From Peptostreptococcaceae bacterium (lineage in GTDB: Bacteria > Bacillota > Clostridia > Peptostreptococcales > Anaerovoracaceae): a stretch of 53,104 nucleotides of DNA. Both the position numbers and the translations under genes were made by a program. Below, piece by piece: positions 20,388-35,117 of the stretch. Location of the stretch: assembly GCA_016650175.1 (NCBI GenBank), contig JAENWG010000007.1, positions 1 to 53,104 of the forward strand. Direction: 5' to 3'. The stretch's first letter is position 1; each line of letters begins with the position of its first letter. Under the pieces are notes generated by a model that saw nothing but the letters and a program-made list of their open reading frames with translations, was not told where the DNA came from and made no database searches.

Positions 20388-23300
20388 TTAGATATCAAAG
20401 AAAGATATCTGCGCTGAATTAGGTACACCTTCAAATACTCCATATTTATTTAATTCCTCTATGTTCGTAGATGAAAGTTTAGTTTTTTGTTTAACTTCCT
20501 CTAGAGTCTTAAATACTGTTAAATCATATTCTTTCTTTAAAGATTCAGCTGCCGTTTGACCTACTCCGCTTACAGAAGCGAACGGAAGTCTCACCTTACC
20601 TTCGTAAATAGTAAATACCGCAGCTTTAGATTTACCCAATTCAGGAGGCAAAAACTCATATCCCCTTGAATACATCTCATAGGCTATTTCATATATCAAG
20701 ACTTCGTCCAATTCTTTTTTACTGGCATTTTTACCCATGCGTTTAACTTCTTCCAACTTTTCGTAAACAGCATCTATGCCTCCTAATATAGCTTCCGCAT
20801 TAAAACTGTCAATCTTCGTTGTAAAATATGTAGCATAAAATTCCAACGGATAATACACCTTAAACCATGCCATTCTAAATGACATCATAACATAAGCAAC
20901 GGCATGTGCTCTTGGGAACATGTATTGTATTCTCTTGCAAGACTCAATATACCAATCTGGGACTTTATGTTCCTTCATTATTTTTAGTTGCTCTTCTTTA
21001 AGTGGCCTATTCTTTCGTACGTCCTCCATTATTTGAAAGGATTCTGCGTTATTTATACCTTTGAGAATCAGGTAATTCATAATATCGTCTCTTGTCGATA
21101 TAACCTCTTTCATTGTAGCCGTACCGTTAGTAATGAACTCTTGCGCATTATTAAGCCAAACATTCGTACCATGAGAAAATCCCGATATTCTAATTAATGC
21201 TGACATTGTTTCAGGATGAGTATCGTCGAGCATTTTTCTAACAAAAGAAGTTCCAAACTCAGGTATTGCATAACTACCATGAGTAAATTTGTATTCTTTA
21301 TTTTTAATGTCCAAAACTTCTGTGCTAGTAAATATTTTCATAACCTTTTTATCACTTAAATCTATACTTAATGGGTCTACTCCTGTAAGATCTTGCAAAT
21401 GGCGTATCATAGAAGGAATATCATGCCCCAATATATCAAGTTTTAATAAGTTTTTTTCGATTTTATGGTAATCAAAATGTGTAGTTATAATATCTGTGTT
21501 TGTTGAGTTTGCAGGATGCTGAACAGGACAAAATTCATATATTTCATTTTCTTCAGGAACAATTATTATTCCTCCAGGATGTTGGCCTGTGGTTCTCTTC
21601 ACTCCCGTACATCCTTTAGCTAATCTATCAATCTCAAATTTATTATATTCATAGTTATTTTCTTCTAAATAATGTTTTACATAACCGTAGGCAGTCTTAT
21701 CCGCTATAGTACTTACAGTACCTGCTTTGAATACATTTTTTTCGCCAAATATTTCACCTACATATTTATGTGCAGTCGCTTGATATTCTCCTGCAAAGTT
21801 AAGATCTATATCAGGTTCCTTATCACCTTTAAATCCCAAGAACGTAGCAAAAGGAATATTAAATCCGTCCTTTTTAAGTTTCTCTCCACATTCAGGACAT
21901 ATCTTATCGGGCATATCAACTCCACAGTCATAATCGTTTAAATCTCCCCATTCTATATACTTACAATTAGGGCAAATATAGTGTGGATCTAATGGATTTA
22001 CTTCAGTTATTCCAGCCATAGTAGCTGCAAATGATGAACCGACTGAGCCTCTACTTCCTACCAGATATCCATCACTTAGCGATTTTTCAACTAGCATTTG
22101 GGCCGAAACATACATTACAGCATACCCATTAGATATTATTGAGTTCAGCTCTATCTCAAGTCTTTCTTCAATTACTTTAGGAAGAGGGTCTCCATATATA
22201 CCATGCGCTTTTTTAGCACAAGTTTCTCTAAGTTTTTCTTCTGCACCAGCTATTTTAGGTGGGAATTTTTTGTTTGATATAGGTTCGACATAATCTATCA
22301 TATCAGCTATCTTATTAGTATTTGTTATTACTACTTCATTAGCTCTTTCTTCACCAAGGTAACTAAACTCGTCTAACATCTCCTCGGTAGTTCTAAAAAA
22401 TAGCCCTTTACTGTTAGCATCCTTAAAGCCTATACCCGTCATAATAATATTTCTAAATATAGCCGATTCTTCATCAAAATAATGCGAATCCGTAGTCGCC
22501 ACAGTAAGTTTTTGTAGTTTATCTGCCGTTTGTAAAACTTTTAAATTAAATTTTTTCAAATCTTCATTTGACTTAACTATATTTTTTCTTATCATAAAAT
22601 TATTATTAATAAGAGGTTGTATTTCTAAATAGTCATAGAACGAAGCTATTTCTTCTATTTTTTCATCAGGTAAACCGTTTTTAACAGCAGAAAAAACTTC
22701 TCCAGCTTCACATGCACTTCCTATAATTAATCCTTCTCTATGTTTAATAAGTATAGACTTAGGAATTCTAGGTCTTTTATAGAAGTATTCAATGTGAGAA
22801 TATGAAACCAATTTATATAAGTTTTTTAAACCCTCTTGATTTTTAGCCAAAAGAATAATATGGTTAGTCCCATGCTTTTTATAGTCTATAGTTCCATCAG
22901 CCCTAATCGAATCACTATCATCATAAAGATACCCTTCGAGTCCATATATAACTTTTATATCTTTACCCTCTTTTAGAAGCTTTTGGCGTGTATTAGCGGC
23001 ATCAGGGAATGCTTGTACTACTCCATGATCTGTTATTGCTATTGCAGGATGACCCCATTCAGCAGCAGTTTTTATCATTTTATCTATATCATTAAATCCG
23101 TCACTGTCACTCATTTTAGTATGTACATGAAGTTCTACTCTTTTTCCTTTTTTACATAGGTCTTTTCTTTTTTCTTTTTTAATTTTATTTATCTTGTTAG
23201 CAATAAGCACTACACAATTTTCATATGTATCAAACTGAGCATCACCTTTTATTAAAAGTGTATCACCCTCGTTAATAAGCTGTTCAAGCTCTTCCCACTT

Positions 23301-24161
23301 TTCCTCAGATATGAAAAGTTTAGTACATACAGAAGTTTTATTATCTGTTAAAAGAAGTGTATAAAGAATTCTTCCCGATTTAATCTGAAAATGTGATTTA
23401 CTAAATATAACTCCTTGGATAACAACGTTGCCGCTAGAACTATTTAAGTCTCTTAGGTTAATACCCTCTCCGATAATTCTTCCGCCCACTAAATAGTCTC
23501 CTTCAGCAGGGATATCTACATTTCTTCTTTTCTTTTTGTAAGGATTATTTGATTTACTTGTAGCACTTGGCTTCTTTAACGGAATATTGTCATTTATCTT
23601 TTTTATCGCATTTATTTCTATACTATCTATTTTAGATTTCGATTTTACTATTCTTTCAGCATGCTTTTTACAAACTTCAAAACTAAACTCATACTTGAGG
23701 CCTAACTGCTTAAGCATTATTTCCTCAATAACTTTTCCTAGCTGTTTATTTAGTTTCTTAGTAGTTACTTCTCCTACTGATTTTGCAATTACCTTTTCAC
23801 CTTCTATGTAAAAATCTTCTTTTCTTATAAATCTAAGAAGAAACGCATTATCACTATTAACATATTCTGTTAGATAAGGTATATACATCTTAATTGCCAT
23901 TTCATCATCTATCGCTAAATCTTTGTATTCGTAATTAAGTATAACTCCATTAATTTCGTCTGAAATTAGCGATACTTTATATTTTAATAATTTATGAACA
24001 TCATATGGCATAACAAAATTGAGCCTAATATTAATGGTTATCATCAGACTCGCTTTATCTATAAAAGAATCTAAAACATCAAAGTTTAGATTCTCTTTTT
24101 TCATATTCAGATTGTCACATACTGCATTCCAATCAATAAGGCTGTTTATGTATTTTTCCAT
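20388..24161 (-). CDS. polC: DNA polymerase III alpha subunit, PolC type, lacking the exonuclease domain
   Basis: This is the main replicative polymerase of low-GC Gram-positives. Order: N-terminal domain (1-~210), OB fold (~240-325), PHP domain, polymerase core and a C-terminal QISFF clamp-binding peptide. The Cys-rich zinc site (CPNC 730-733, C746, CPEC 755-758) and catalytic PDIDLNF (783-789) are intact. At 1257 residues it is about 180 short of ordinary PolC (~1440): after YGLEGYLYDD (406-415) the chain goes straight to HIILLAKNQEGLKN (from 434), where the 3'-5' exonuclease normally sits. No FDxETTG motif is present. PHP residues H345, H347, H379, E409, H434, C484, D558 and H560 look complete. 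Confidence 0.96.
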   Translation of the reverse strand: MEKYINSLIDWNAVCDNLNMKKENLNFDVLDSFIDKASLMITINIRLNFVMPYDVHKLLKYKVSLISDEINGVILNYEYKDLAIDDEMAIKMYIPYLTEYVNSDNAFLLRFIRKEDFYIEGEKVIAKSVGEVTTKKLNKQLGKVIEEIMLKQLGLKYEFSFEVCKKHAERIVKSKSKIDSIEINAIKKINDNIPLKKPSATSKSNNPYKKKRRNVDIPAEGDYLVGGRIIGEGINLRDLNSSSGNVVIQGVIFSKSHFQIKSGRILYTLLLTDNKTSVCTKLFISEEKWEELEQLINEGDTLLIKGDAQFDTYENCVVLIANKINKIKKEKRKDLCKKGKRVELHVHTKMSDSDGFNDIDKMIKTAAEWGHPAIAITDHGVVQAFPDAANTRQKLLKEGKDIKVIYGLEGYLYDDSDSIRADGTIDYKKHGTNHIILLAKNQEGLKNLYKLVSYSHIEYFYKRPRIPKSILIKHREGLIIGSACEAGEVFSAVKNGLPDEKIEEIASFYDYLEIQPLINNNFMIRKNIVKSNEDLKKFNLKVLQTADKLQKLTVATTDSHYFDEESAIFRNIIMTGIGFKDANSKGLFFRTTEEMLDEFSYLGEERANEVVITNTNKIADMIDYVEPISNKKFPPKIAGAEEKLRETCAKKAHGIYGDPLPKVIEERLEIELNSIISNGYAVMYVSAQMLVEKSLSDGYLVGSRGSVGSSFAATMAGITEVNPLDPHYICPNCKYIEWGDLNDYDCGVDMPDKICPECGEKLKKDGFNIPFATFLGFKGDKEPDIDLNFAGEYQATAHKYVGEIFGEKNVFKAGTVSTIADKTAYGYVKHYLEENNYEYNKFEIDRLAKGCTGVKRTTGQHPGGIIIVPEENEIYEFCPVQHPANSTNTDIITTHFDYHKIEKNLLKLDILGHDIPSMIRHLQDLTGVDPLSIDLSDKKVMKIFTSTEVLDIKNKEYKFTHGSYAIPEFGTSFVRKMLDDTHPETMSALIRISGFSHGTNVWLNNAQEFITNGTATMKEVISTRDDIMNYLILKGINNAESFQIMEDVRKNRPLKEEQLKIMKEHKVPDWYIESCKRIQYMFPRAHAVAYVMMSFRMAWFKVYYPLEFYATYFTTKIDSFNAEAILGGIDAVYEKLEEVKRMGKNASKKELDEVLIYEIAYEMYSRGYEFLPPELGKSKAAVFTIYEGKVRLPFASVSGVGQTAAESLKKEYDLTVFKTLEEVKQKTKLSSTNIEELNKYGVFEGVPNSAQISFFDI

Positions 24162-33913: not shown

Positions 33914-34222
33914 ATACTCAATACAAATCATACCAAAGAATCAATTGGTTTAGAAAATGTATTAGTAACAAATTTAGAAAATTTCAGTGAAGAAATTCAC
34001 ATATCATTAGAAATGCCTAGAAAGGAACATGCTTGTCCAAATTGTGGGGTTATGACAAATTGTGTTCATGATTACATAAATCAAAGGATTAAAGATATAC
34101 CTACTAGGCATAAAAAAACATATCTTTATCTACGCAAGAGAATATATAAGTGCCCATTATGTGGGCAAATATTTATTGAAGATATTCCGTTTCTACCTAA
34201 GTACCATCATTCTACTAGGAGG
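33914..34222 (+). pseudogene. ISL3-family transposase, N-terminal fragment
   Basis: The reading frame encodes the N-terminal zinc-ribbon region of ISL3 transposases: LGLENVLVTNLENF-like start, CPNCGVMT, IKDIPTRHKKTYLYLRKR and CPLCGQIF. An AAAGGA ribosome site at 33901-33906 is followed seven bases later by ATA (33914-33916) where an ATG is expected, so the start codon appears mutated. An internal ATG at 34013 would give an 83-residue product. The homology stops near RRL (about 34222), where IS30-type sequence begins. Confidence 0.8.
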
Positions 34223-34374
34223 TTAATAGCAAAAGGCAAAGCAGTTTCAGACCATAGTGCTTAAGCCATAGCGTTTATTGAAGACTGGTGCAATACACAC
34301 CTCAAAAAACACTTGGATATAGAACCCCAGAAGAACTGTTCGAGAAACAACTTGATCCTATATATTCAACATAA
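34223..34374 (+). pseudogene. IS30-family transposase, C-terminal remnant
   Basis: The frame continues as AKGKAVSDHSA, stop (TAA, 34262-34264), then AIAFIEDWCNT. A frameshift leads to the frame at 34291-34374, encoding QKTLGYRTPEELFEKQLDPI and a stop. WCNT...LGYRTPEELFE...IY is the typical C-terminus of IS30-family transposases. One nonsense codon and one frameshift show it is dead. It is joined directly to the truncated ISL3 gene. The following 34375-34430 may be the IS30 right end. Confidence 0.7.
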
Positions 34375-34415
34375 GGTCAAGGAAACATTTTAACGAAGAC
34401 TAGTTCAAATTGCTA

Positions 34416-34443
34416 TTGAAATTCAGGAATTAAATGTTATAAT
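34416..34443 (+). promoter_or_regulatory. Candidate csbD promoter, -35 in IS30-end sequence
   Basis: TTGAAA (34416-34421), a 16-bp spacer and TATAAT (34438-34443), about 44 bp before csbD. The -35 lies in what looks like the right end of the IS30 remnant. Confidence 0.5.
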
Positions 34444-34486
34444 TAGACTAAGTTAAAACACTGGATTTACTAAGGAGGTATTAACG

Positions 34487-34735
34487 ATGAACAAAGATAT
34501 TATGGAAGGCAAGTGGGAACAAGTAAAAGGCGAAGTTCAGAAAAAATGGGGTAAGCTAACCGATGACGATCTTGATGTTATTAAGGGTGATGCAAAAAAA
34601 TTGGCCGGAAAGCTTCAAGAAAAATATGGAATGACAAAAGAAGAAGCAGAAAAAGCAGTAGAAGATGTTGGTCAACAGGACCATGATATGATTACAGGAG
34701 AAAAAATTTCAAAGTACAAAAGGAATTACGATTAA
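34487..34735 (+). CDS. csbD: CsbD-family stress protein
   Basis: The 82-residue hydrophilic, helical protein matches the CsbD family pattern: a start MEGKWEQVKGEVQKKWGKLTDDD, then IKGDAKKLAGKLQEKYG and a short acidic end. CsbD proteins are general-stress-induced in Bacillus; their molecular role is unknown. An AAGGAGG ribosome site precedes the ATG. It is the only intact gene inside the ISL3-bounded element, so it may be cargo. The C-terminal KISKYKRNYD extension is longer than the core family. Confidence 0.85.
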   Translation: MNKDIMEGKWEQVKGEVQKKWGKLTDDDLDVIKGDAKKLAGKLQEKYGMTKEEAEKAVEDVGQQDHDMITGEKISKYKRNYD

Positions 34736-34742
34736 AAATAAC

Positions 34743-34824
34743 GGTTCTATAATAAATGTTGGCGTAACCGGTAAATGGTTGCTCCAGCATTTTTAAGTTT
34801 TTGCAAAAAAAGAATGAGCAGATG
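34743..34824 (+). repeat. Second copy of the ISL3 left end
   Basis: This 82-bp stretch matches 33779-33860 at about 90% (GGTTCTATAATAAATGTTGG at both). It is fused directly to the transposase C-terminal fragment, so it marks a second, internally deleted ISL3 copy in the same orientation. Confidence 0.85.
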
Positions 34825-35117
34825 CTTACTATTTGCTACAGAGCTTTAGAGATATTTTTAAATGCGAAGATCGTAGTGAAGCTAAAAAAGAATTAAGTAA
34901 CTGGATGCTTAAAGTGGAAGCTTTAGATATGCCAGAATTTAGAGCATGCGTTAATGCTATGGACAATTGGAAAACAGAGATACTTAATATGTTTGAATAT
35001 GGTTTTAGCAATGGATGCACTGAAGGCTGCAATAACAAAACAAAGGTATTAAAACGAATATCTTATGGCTGTCCTAACTTTGAAAGATTTAGAACTAGGC
35101 GACTAATTCTGAATTAG
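34824..35117 (+). pseudogene. ISL3-family transposase, C-terminal fragment
   Basis: The open frame from 34824 encodes AYYLLQSFRDIFKCEDRSEA, then YGFSNGCTEGCNNKTKVLKR and YGCPNFERFRTRRLIL, the conserved end of the ISL3 DDE domain (normally GxxEGxNNxxKxxKRxxxG). The catalytic acidic residues of the missing middle part are absent. There is no start codon near the fusion point, so this is a remnant. Confidence 0.85.

Follow-up and report, generated by a model that had tools for sequence, protein, structure and literature searches.

A clostridial PolC replicase that lacks the DnaQ-type exonuclease domain and retains a full set of candidate PHP metal ligands

The window analysed here, i.e. the whole stretch of 53,104 nucleotides from contig JAENWG010000007.1, carries on its minus strand the gene series pyrH, frr, uppS, cdsA, dxr, rseP, ispG, polC, rimP, nusA and infB, which is an ordinary setting for polC. 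Elsewhere in the window, at 34013-35117 on the plus strand, ISL3-type transposase-like pieces recognised by eye (a zinc-finger N-terminus at 34013-34264 and a C-terminal piece at 34833-35117) lie around an 82-aa CsbD-like ORF at 34487-34735. The polC frame begins with ATG and has no internal stops (Table 1). Its product, P0001, passes both PolC equivalog models of NCBIfam, PRK00448 with 1463 bits (cut-off 873) and TIGR01405 with 1335 bits (cut-off 1043), and shows Pfam matches to PHP, DNA_pol3_alpha, the finger domain and HHH_6. Residues 243-1255 align collinearly with the crystallised Geobacillus PolC chain 3f2b (1041 residues), from whose structure the NTD and Exo are missing (PMC3919608), and canonical PolC (3f2b; 9qpc) shares with P0001 a collinear series of NTD, OB, PHP, polymerase and HhH at 44-47% identity in structural alignments. 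An AlphaFold model built on a shallow alignment of 15 rows reached a mean pLDDT of 72.7, with a poor palm and PHP blocks mostly at 80-95; therefore, the PHP/OB part alone was used. The closest matches of the predicted structure are the solved PolCs (Z ~40), followed by the DnaEs of Taq, E. coli and M. tuberculosis (25-30). Pfam, the structural alignment and the model matches place the OB domain N-terminal to PHP, followed by the polymerase and HhH, which is the arrangement that defines PolC, and P0001 is a bona fide PolC with an unbroken PHP domain.

Table 1. Features of the polC gene and its product in the window
Feature	Position	Strand	Evidence
polC, Exo-less, 1257 aa	20388..24161	-	ORF, Pfam, equivalog models, structural alignment
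N-terminal region, residues 1-200, counterpart of the PolC NTD	23562..24161	-	weak alignment to 9qpc from residue 35; position in protein
OB domain, ~residues 240-335	23157..23444	-	alignment to 3f2b; OB-fold matches of model
PHP part 1, residues 341-415; ligands H345, H347, D354, H379, E409	22917..23141	-	PF02811; ligand alignment
18-residue loop, residues 416-433; ~205-residue Exo insert at this site in other PolCs	22863..22916	-	alignment
PHP part 2, residues 434-605; ligands H434, C484, D558, H560	22347..22862	-	Pfam, ligand alignment, model
D558-S-H560, PHP ligands 8 and 9 (N-V-H in 3f2b, 9qpc)	22482..22490	-	structural alignment
Polymerase core, ~residues 642-1119	20805..22238	-	PF07733, PF17657
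Zinc-ligand cysteines CPNCKY (730)...CPECG (755), residues 730-759	21885..21974	-	sequence, alignment
PDIDLNF, residues 783-789; catalytic D784, D786	21795..21815	-	invariant in alignment
Catalytic D909 of KLDILG (907 on)	21435..21437	-	invariant in alignment
C-terminal sliding-clamp motif QISFF, residues 1251-1255	20397..20411	-	by motif

The Pfam PHP match in P0001 is a single contiguous block (residues 343-509), and a Pfam search of the whole protein returned no RNase_T/Exo match, so that an exonuclease domain displaced to another part of the protein was not found either. In the alignment, YGLEGYLYDD (406-415) is separated from HIILLAK (434 on) by 18 residues, as against 202-213 in Exo-containing relatives, in which this stretch encloses an FVVFDIETTG-type motif; this difference implies that about 185-195 residues are absent from P0001. 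The DnaQ-type Exo is thus absent and a short loop occupies its site. The original prediction of a clean loss at the YGLEGYLYDD junction is borne out, except that the missing segment is slightly larger than the ~170 residues it had claimed. It had also described the polymerase, zinc and clamp motifs as intact, and PDIDLNF, KLDILG, CPNCKY/CPECG and QISFF were all recovered. A survey of relatives for the same deletion, as it had proposed, found the junction in an independent genome of the same genus, whose PolC is 87% identical (L002 = L045), and in Mogibacterium pumilum (a chromosome record), M. timidum and M. kristiansenii; P0001 and about 50 other loci, from many families, have it in common.

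The active PHP site comprises nine positions, HHDHEH[C/H]DH (PMC12926913), and all nine are filled in P0001 (Table 1), in agreement with the earlier proposal of a complete candidate ligand set that includes D558-S-H560. Ligand 8 is instead asparagine in both solved PolC chains, which normally bear Exo: the N-V-H that had been given for Bacillus subtilis PolC is what is seen in Geobacillus 3f2b and in 9qpc. In Geobacillus (Gka) PolC, with one of the nine PHP residues mutated, PHP exonuclease activity is absent, whereas in M. tuberculosis DnaE1 the nine residues form a trinuclear zinc site that proofreads (PMC5636811). The Exo insertion site corresponds to a loop beside the PHP site which is 18 residues long in Taq Pol III alpha (PMC5636811), the same length as in P0001. 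P0001 thus resembles the PHP-proofreading polymerases of M. tuberculosis and Thermus in its nine ligands; however, these belong to the DnaE branch, have a different domain order and possess demonstrated exonuclease activity, whereas that of P0001 is predicted. The full motif HHDHEHCDH was found in 53 of 53 Exo-less PolCs in the tree alignment, and the canonical nine-ligand set also in all 27 Exo-containing ones, so that motif integrity is not peculiar to PolCs without Exo. Among PolCs with full coverage a single exception was seen, an Exo-containing one (L068, HHDHENCDH) that the tree does not include. For P0001 and its relative in the same genus, the dN/dS ratio is roughly 0.05 for PHP and 0.03 for the palm/finger region, with synonymous changes near saturation. 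All nine PHP ligand positions, as well as the clamp, zinc and polymerase motifs, are present and under purifying selection. A shift in the PHP rate after Exo loss was considered and rejected: the PHP/polymerase distance ratios in the same divergence bin, 1.22 (Exo-less) and 1.28 (Exo-containing), differ too little and are non-independent.

PolCs of this kind were first described about a decade ago by Timinskas and Venclovas, who found 6% of PolCs to be without Exo, nearly all of them in Clostridia and Negativicutes (PMC3919608). P0001 is a further member of this published variant: its Exo insert is absent, the window belongs, by its closest named relatives, in or next to Anaerovoracaceae (Peptostreptococcales, Clostridia), its DnaE partner likewise has an intact PHP site, and we found no difference in kind. 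The present work adds the nine-ligand check on 53 Exo-less PolCs, a count of state changes on a tree and a survey of whole genomes for DnaQ-type domains. In the window's family, most members that have a PolC are Exo-less, and a minority (G009, G016, G017, G030, G036) have Exo. In an even sample of 196 genomes of the class, 184 have a PolC match, and in at least 28 of these, spread over at least 10 family codes, the match is continuous over the insertion point; the resulting share of at least ~15% is close to the 16% reported for PolC + DnaE1 systems (PMC3919608). On an unrooted PolC tree of 80 rows (53 Exo-less, 27 Exo-containing), built by a quick method with the insert left out, six changes of Exo state are needed, at least four of them forced by starred branches, and the replacement loops vary between clades in length and sequence. 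Hence Exo absence recurs, with four to six state changes in which the unrooted tree does not tell gain from loss; given that carrying Exo is the usual condition and that the domain always occupies a single fixed point in the PHP loop, repeated loss would be the simpler reading. One Exo-containing PolC (L019, from G009) is placed among the family's Exo-less PolCs; its genome is of 4.5 Mb with 5% contamination, and either its Exo state or its placement may mislead.

A search for stand-alone DnaQ-type exonucleases, which the original prediction had called for, gave no match to PF00929 or to a PolC-Exo profile in the window's own genome (1.63 Mb, 78% complete), and within the limits of this completeness we reject the possibility that the excised Exo is encoded elsewhere in it. 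The same search found no match at E <= 0.01 in seven Exo-less family members that are 94-100% complete (G005, G006, G011, G029, G032, G033, G034) and weak partial PolC-Exo-profile matches only in two others (G003, G012). PF00929 has no match in M. kristiansenii and M. timidum, and one (RNase_T) in M. pumilum, in a stand-alone frame of 306 aa. Of the 25 Exo-less genomes in the class sample, 16, including the single-contig G222, are without a PF00929 match; stand-alone PF00929 proteins occur in the other nine, as against 14 of 25 Exo-containing genomes (Fisher p = 0.26, the genomes being non-independent), and nothing indicates that loss of Exo is linked to gain of a stand-alone DnaQ. A same-genus genome (G001) encodes a protein of 621 aa (L082 / L138) in which an N-terminal DEDD exonuclease domain is followed by a long extension, and for which no counterpart was matched in the window's own assembly. 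In G064, from the Exo-less family f16, a stand-alone 279-aa exonuclease (L118) gives the best PolC-Exo-profile score of the stand-alone set, 221 bits; it might be derived from the PolC Exo domain, and no similar protein was found in other genomes of the same genus code. Pol I was rejected as a substitute proofreader: in the 894-aa frame of the window's own genome (L133, G000:C6:29500-33500) the 3'-5' exo is degenerate, with a partial PF01612 match below the cut-off and motif I absent by eye. The DnaE of the same genome (G000:C18) and those of five relatives have complete PHP motifs, which for the window's own DnaE, judging from the motif, fits the expectation for DnaE1. MutS is present in this genome and in all 41 genomes tested.

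Taken together, these observations favor proofreading by PHP among the three options that had been raised (PHP, a separate DnaQ-like protein, or none), given the PHP motif in 53 of 53 Exo-less PolCs and the failure to detect a DnaQ-type domain in many genomes. P0001 is a naturally Exo-less PolC, a variant that recurs in the clostridial replication system of PolC and DnaE; we consider it probable that proofreading is carried out by the PHP sites of both polymerases and that Exo, being redundant, was lost. The ancestor would have combined Exo with a PHP domain competent as a nuclease, the latter rendering Exo redundant and permitting several losses; a set of three potential proofreaders (Exo, PolC PHP and DnaE PHP) is present in most cases in Clostridia (PMC12926913). 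The PHP metal site in PolC would trim a mismatched primer end, and so would the equally intact one in its partner DnaE, in the manner of M. tuberculosis DnaE1, with residual errors corrected by MutS. For the Exo-less PolC itself, metal binding, exonuclease activity and a cellular role of the PHP domain are inferred from its sequence, and the intact motif could have been kept for structure or for another reaction.

A faulty assembly that dropped the Exo-coding stretch might be suspected in a fragmented draft genome of 82 contigs, but is ruled out for practical purposes by the same architecture, with an in-frame conserved loop, in independent genomes that include cultured strains and many families. 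Nearly as hard to credit is the proposal that replicative proofreading is lacking altogether, with base selection and mismatch repair left to suffice; the absence of Exo and the ubiquity of MutS among the tested genomes are consistent with it, yet the invariance of the PHP ligands in both PolC and DnaE across deep divergence would be surprising had the nuclease function been given up. A separate DnaQ-type exonuclease, bound to DnaE or PolC, could proofread in trans. In favor of this are the stand-alone RNase_T proteins of the nine Exo-less class-sample genomes, of G001 and of M. pumilum (the last two could act in this manner), some of which score well with the PolC-Exo profile, and the conserved putative epsilon-binding surface of DnaE1s paired with PolC (PMC3919608). 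However, such proteins are missing from many near-complete Exo-less genomes, are no commoner there than in Exo-containing ones, and are sporadic, in architectures unrelated to one another (BRCT-bearing, repeat-bearing), which makes this explanation improbable.

The alternative that deserves more weight, while still being unlikely, is that most of the genome is copied by a DnaE (DnaE1) with a PHP proofreader of its own, the Exo-less PolC having a limited job in which fidelity is less important. The authors of PMC3919608 put forward DnaE1 as the main replicase and note that Exo-less PolCs are restricted to genomes with PolC and DnaE1 and that some Clostridia have DnaE1 alone; in our class sample, 12 genomes, several of them 98-100% complete, have no PolC-like match at E <= 1e-60, and the intact PHP site of the window's own DnaE fits this role. 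Against it, PolC is retained throughout the family at its customary location, its polymerase and clamp motifs are intact, and the palm/finger dN/dS given above points to strong purifying selection. This alternative is compatible with the PHP explanation, as DnaE would likewise proofread by PHP. Returning to PHP proofreading as the preferred reading, its stronger form holds that several clostridial lineages replicate with PolC and DnaE while their genomes encode no DnaQ-type proofreader at all, so that PHP domains, that of PolC included, are the only polymerase-associated proofreaders; we regard this as having a somewhat better than even chance of being correct.

Some DnaE-type polymerases have been shown to proofread by PHP; in the literature examined we found no report of this for a PolC, and a literature search gave no paper describing what activity an Exo-less PolC has. 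Where no DnaQ-type exonuclease is detectable in the genome, Exo-less PolCs offer natural test objects for PHP proofreading in PolC, for which cultured relatives exist in Mogibacterium, and they raise the testable question of whether a PolC can proofread by PHP alone. As PolC is a drug target, natural variation in its domains is worth knowing. These enzymes also bear on the division of work within the uncharacterised clostridial system of PolC and DnaE1.
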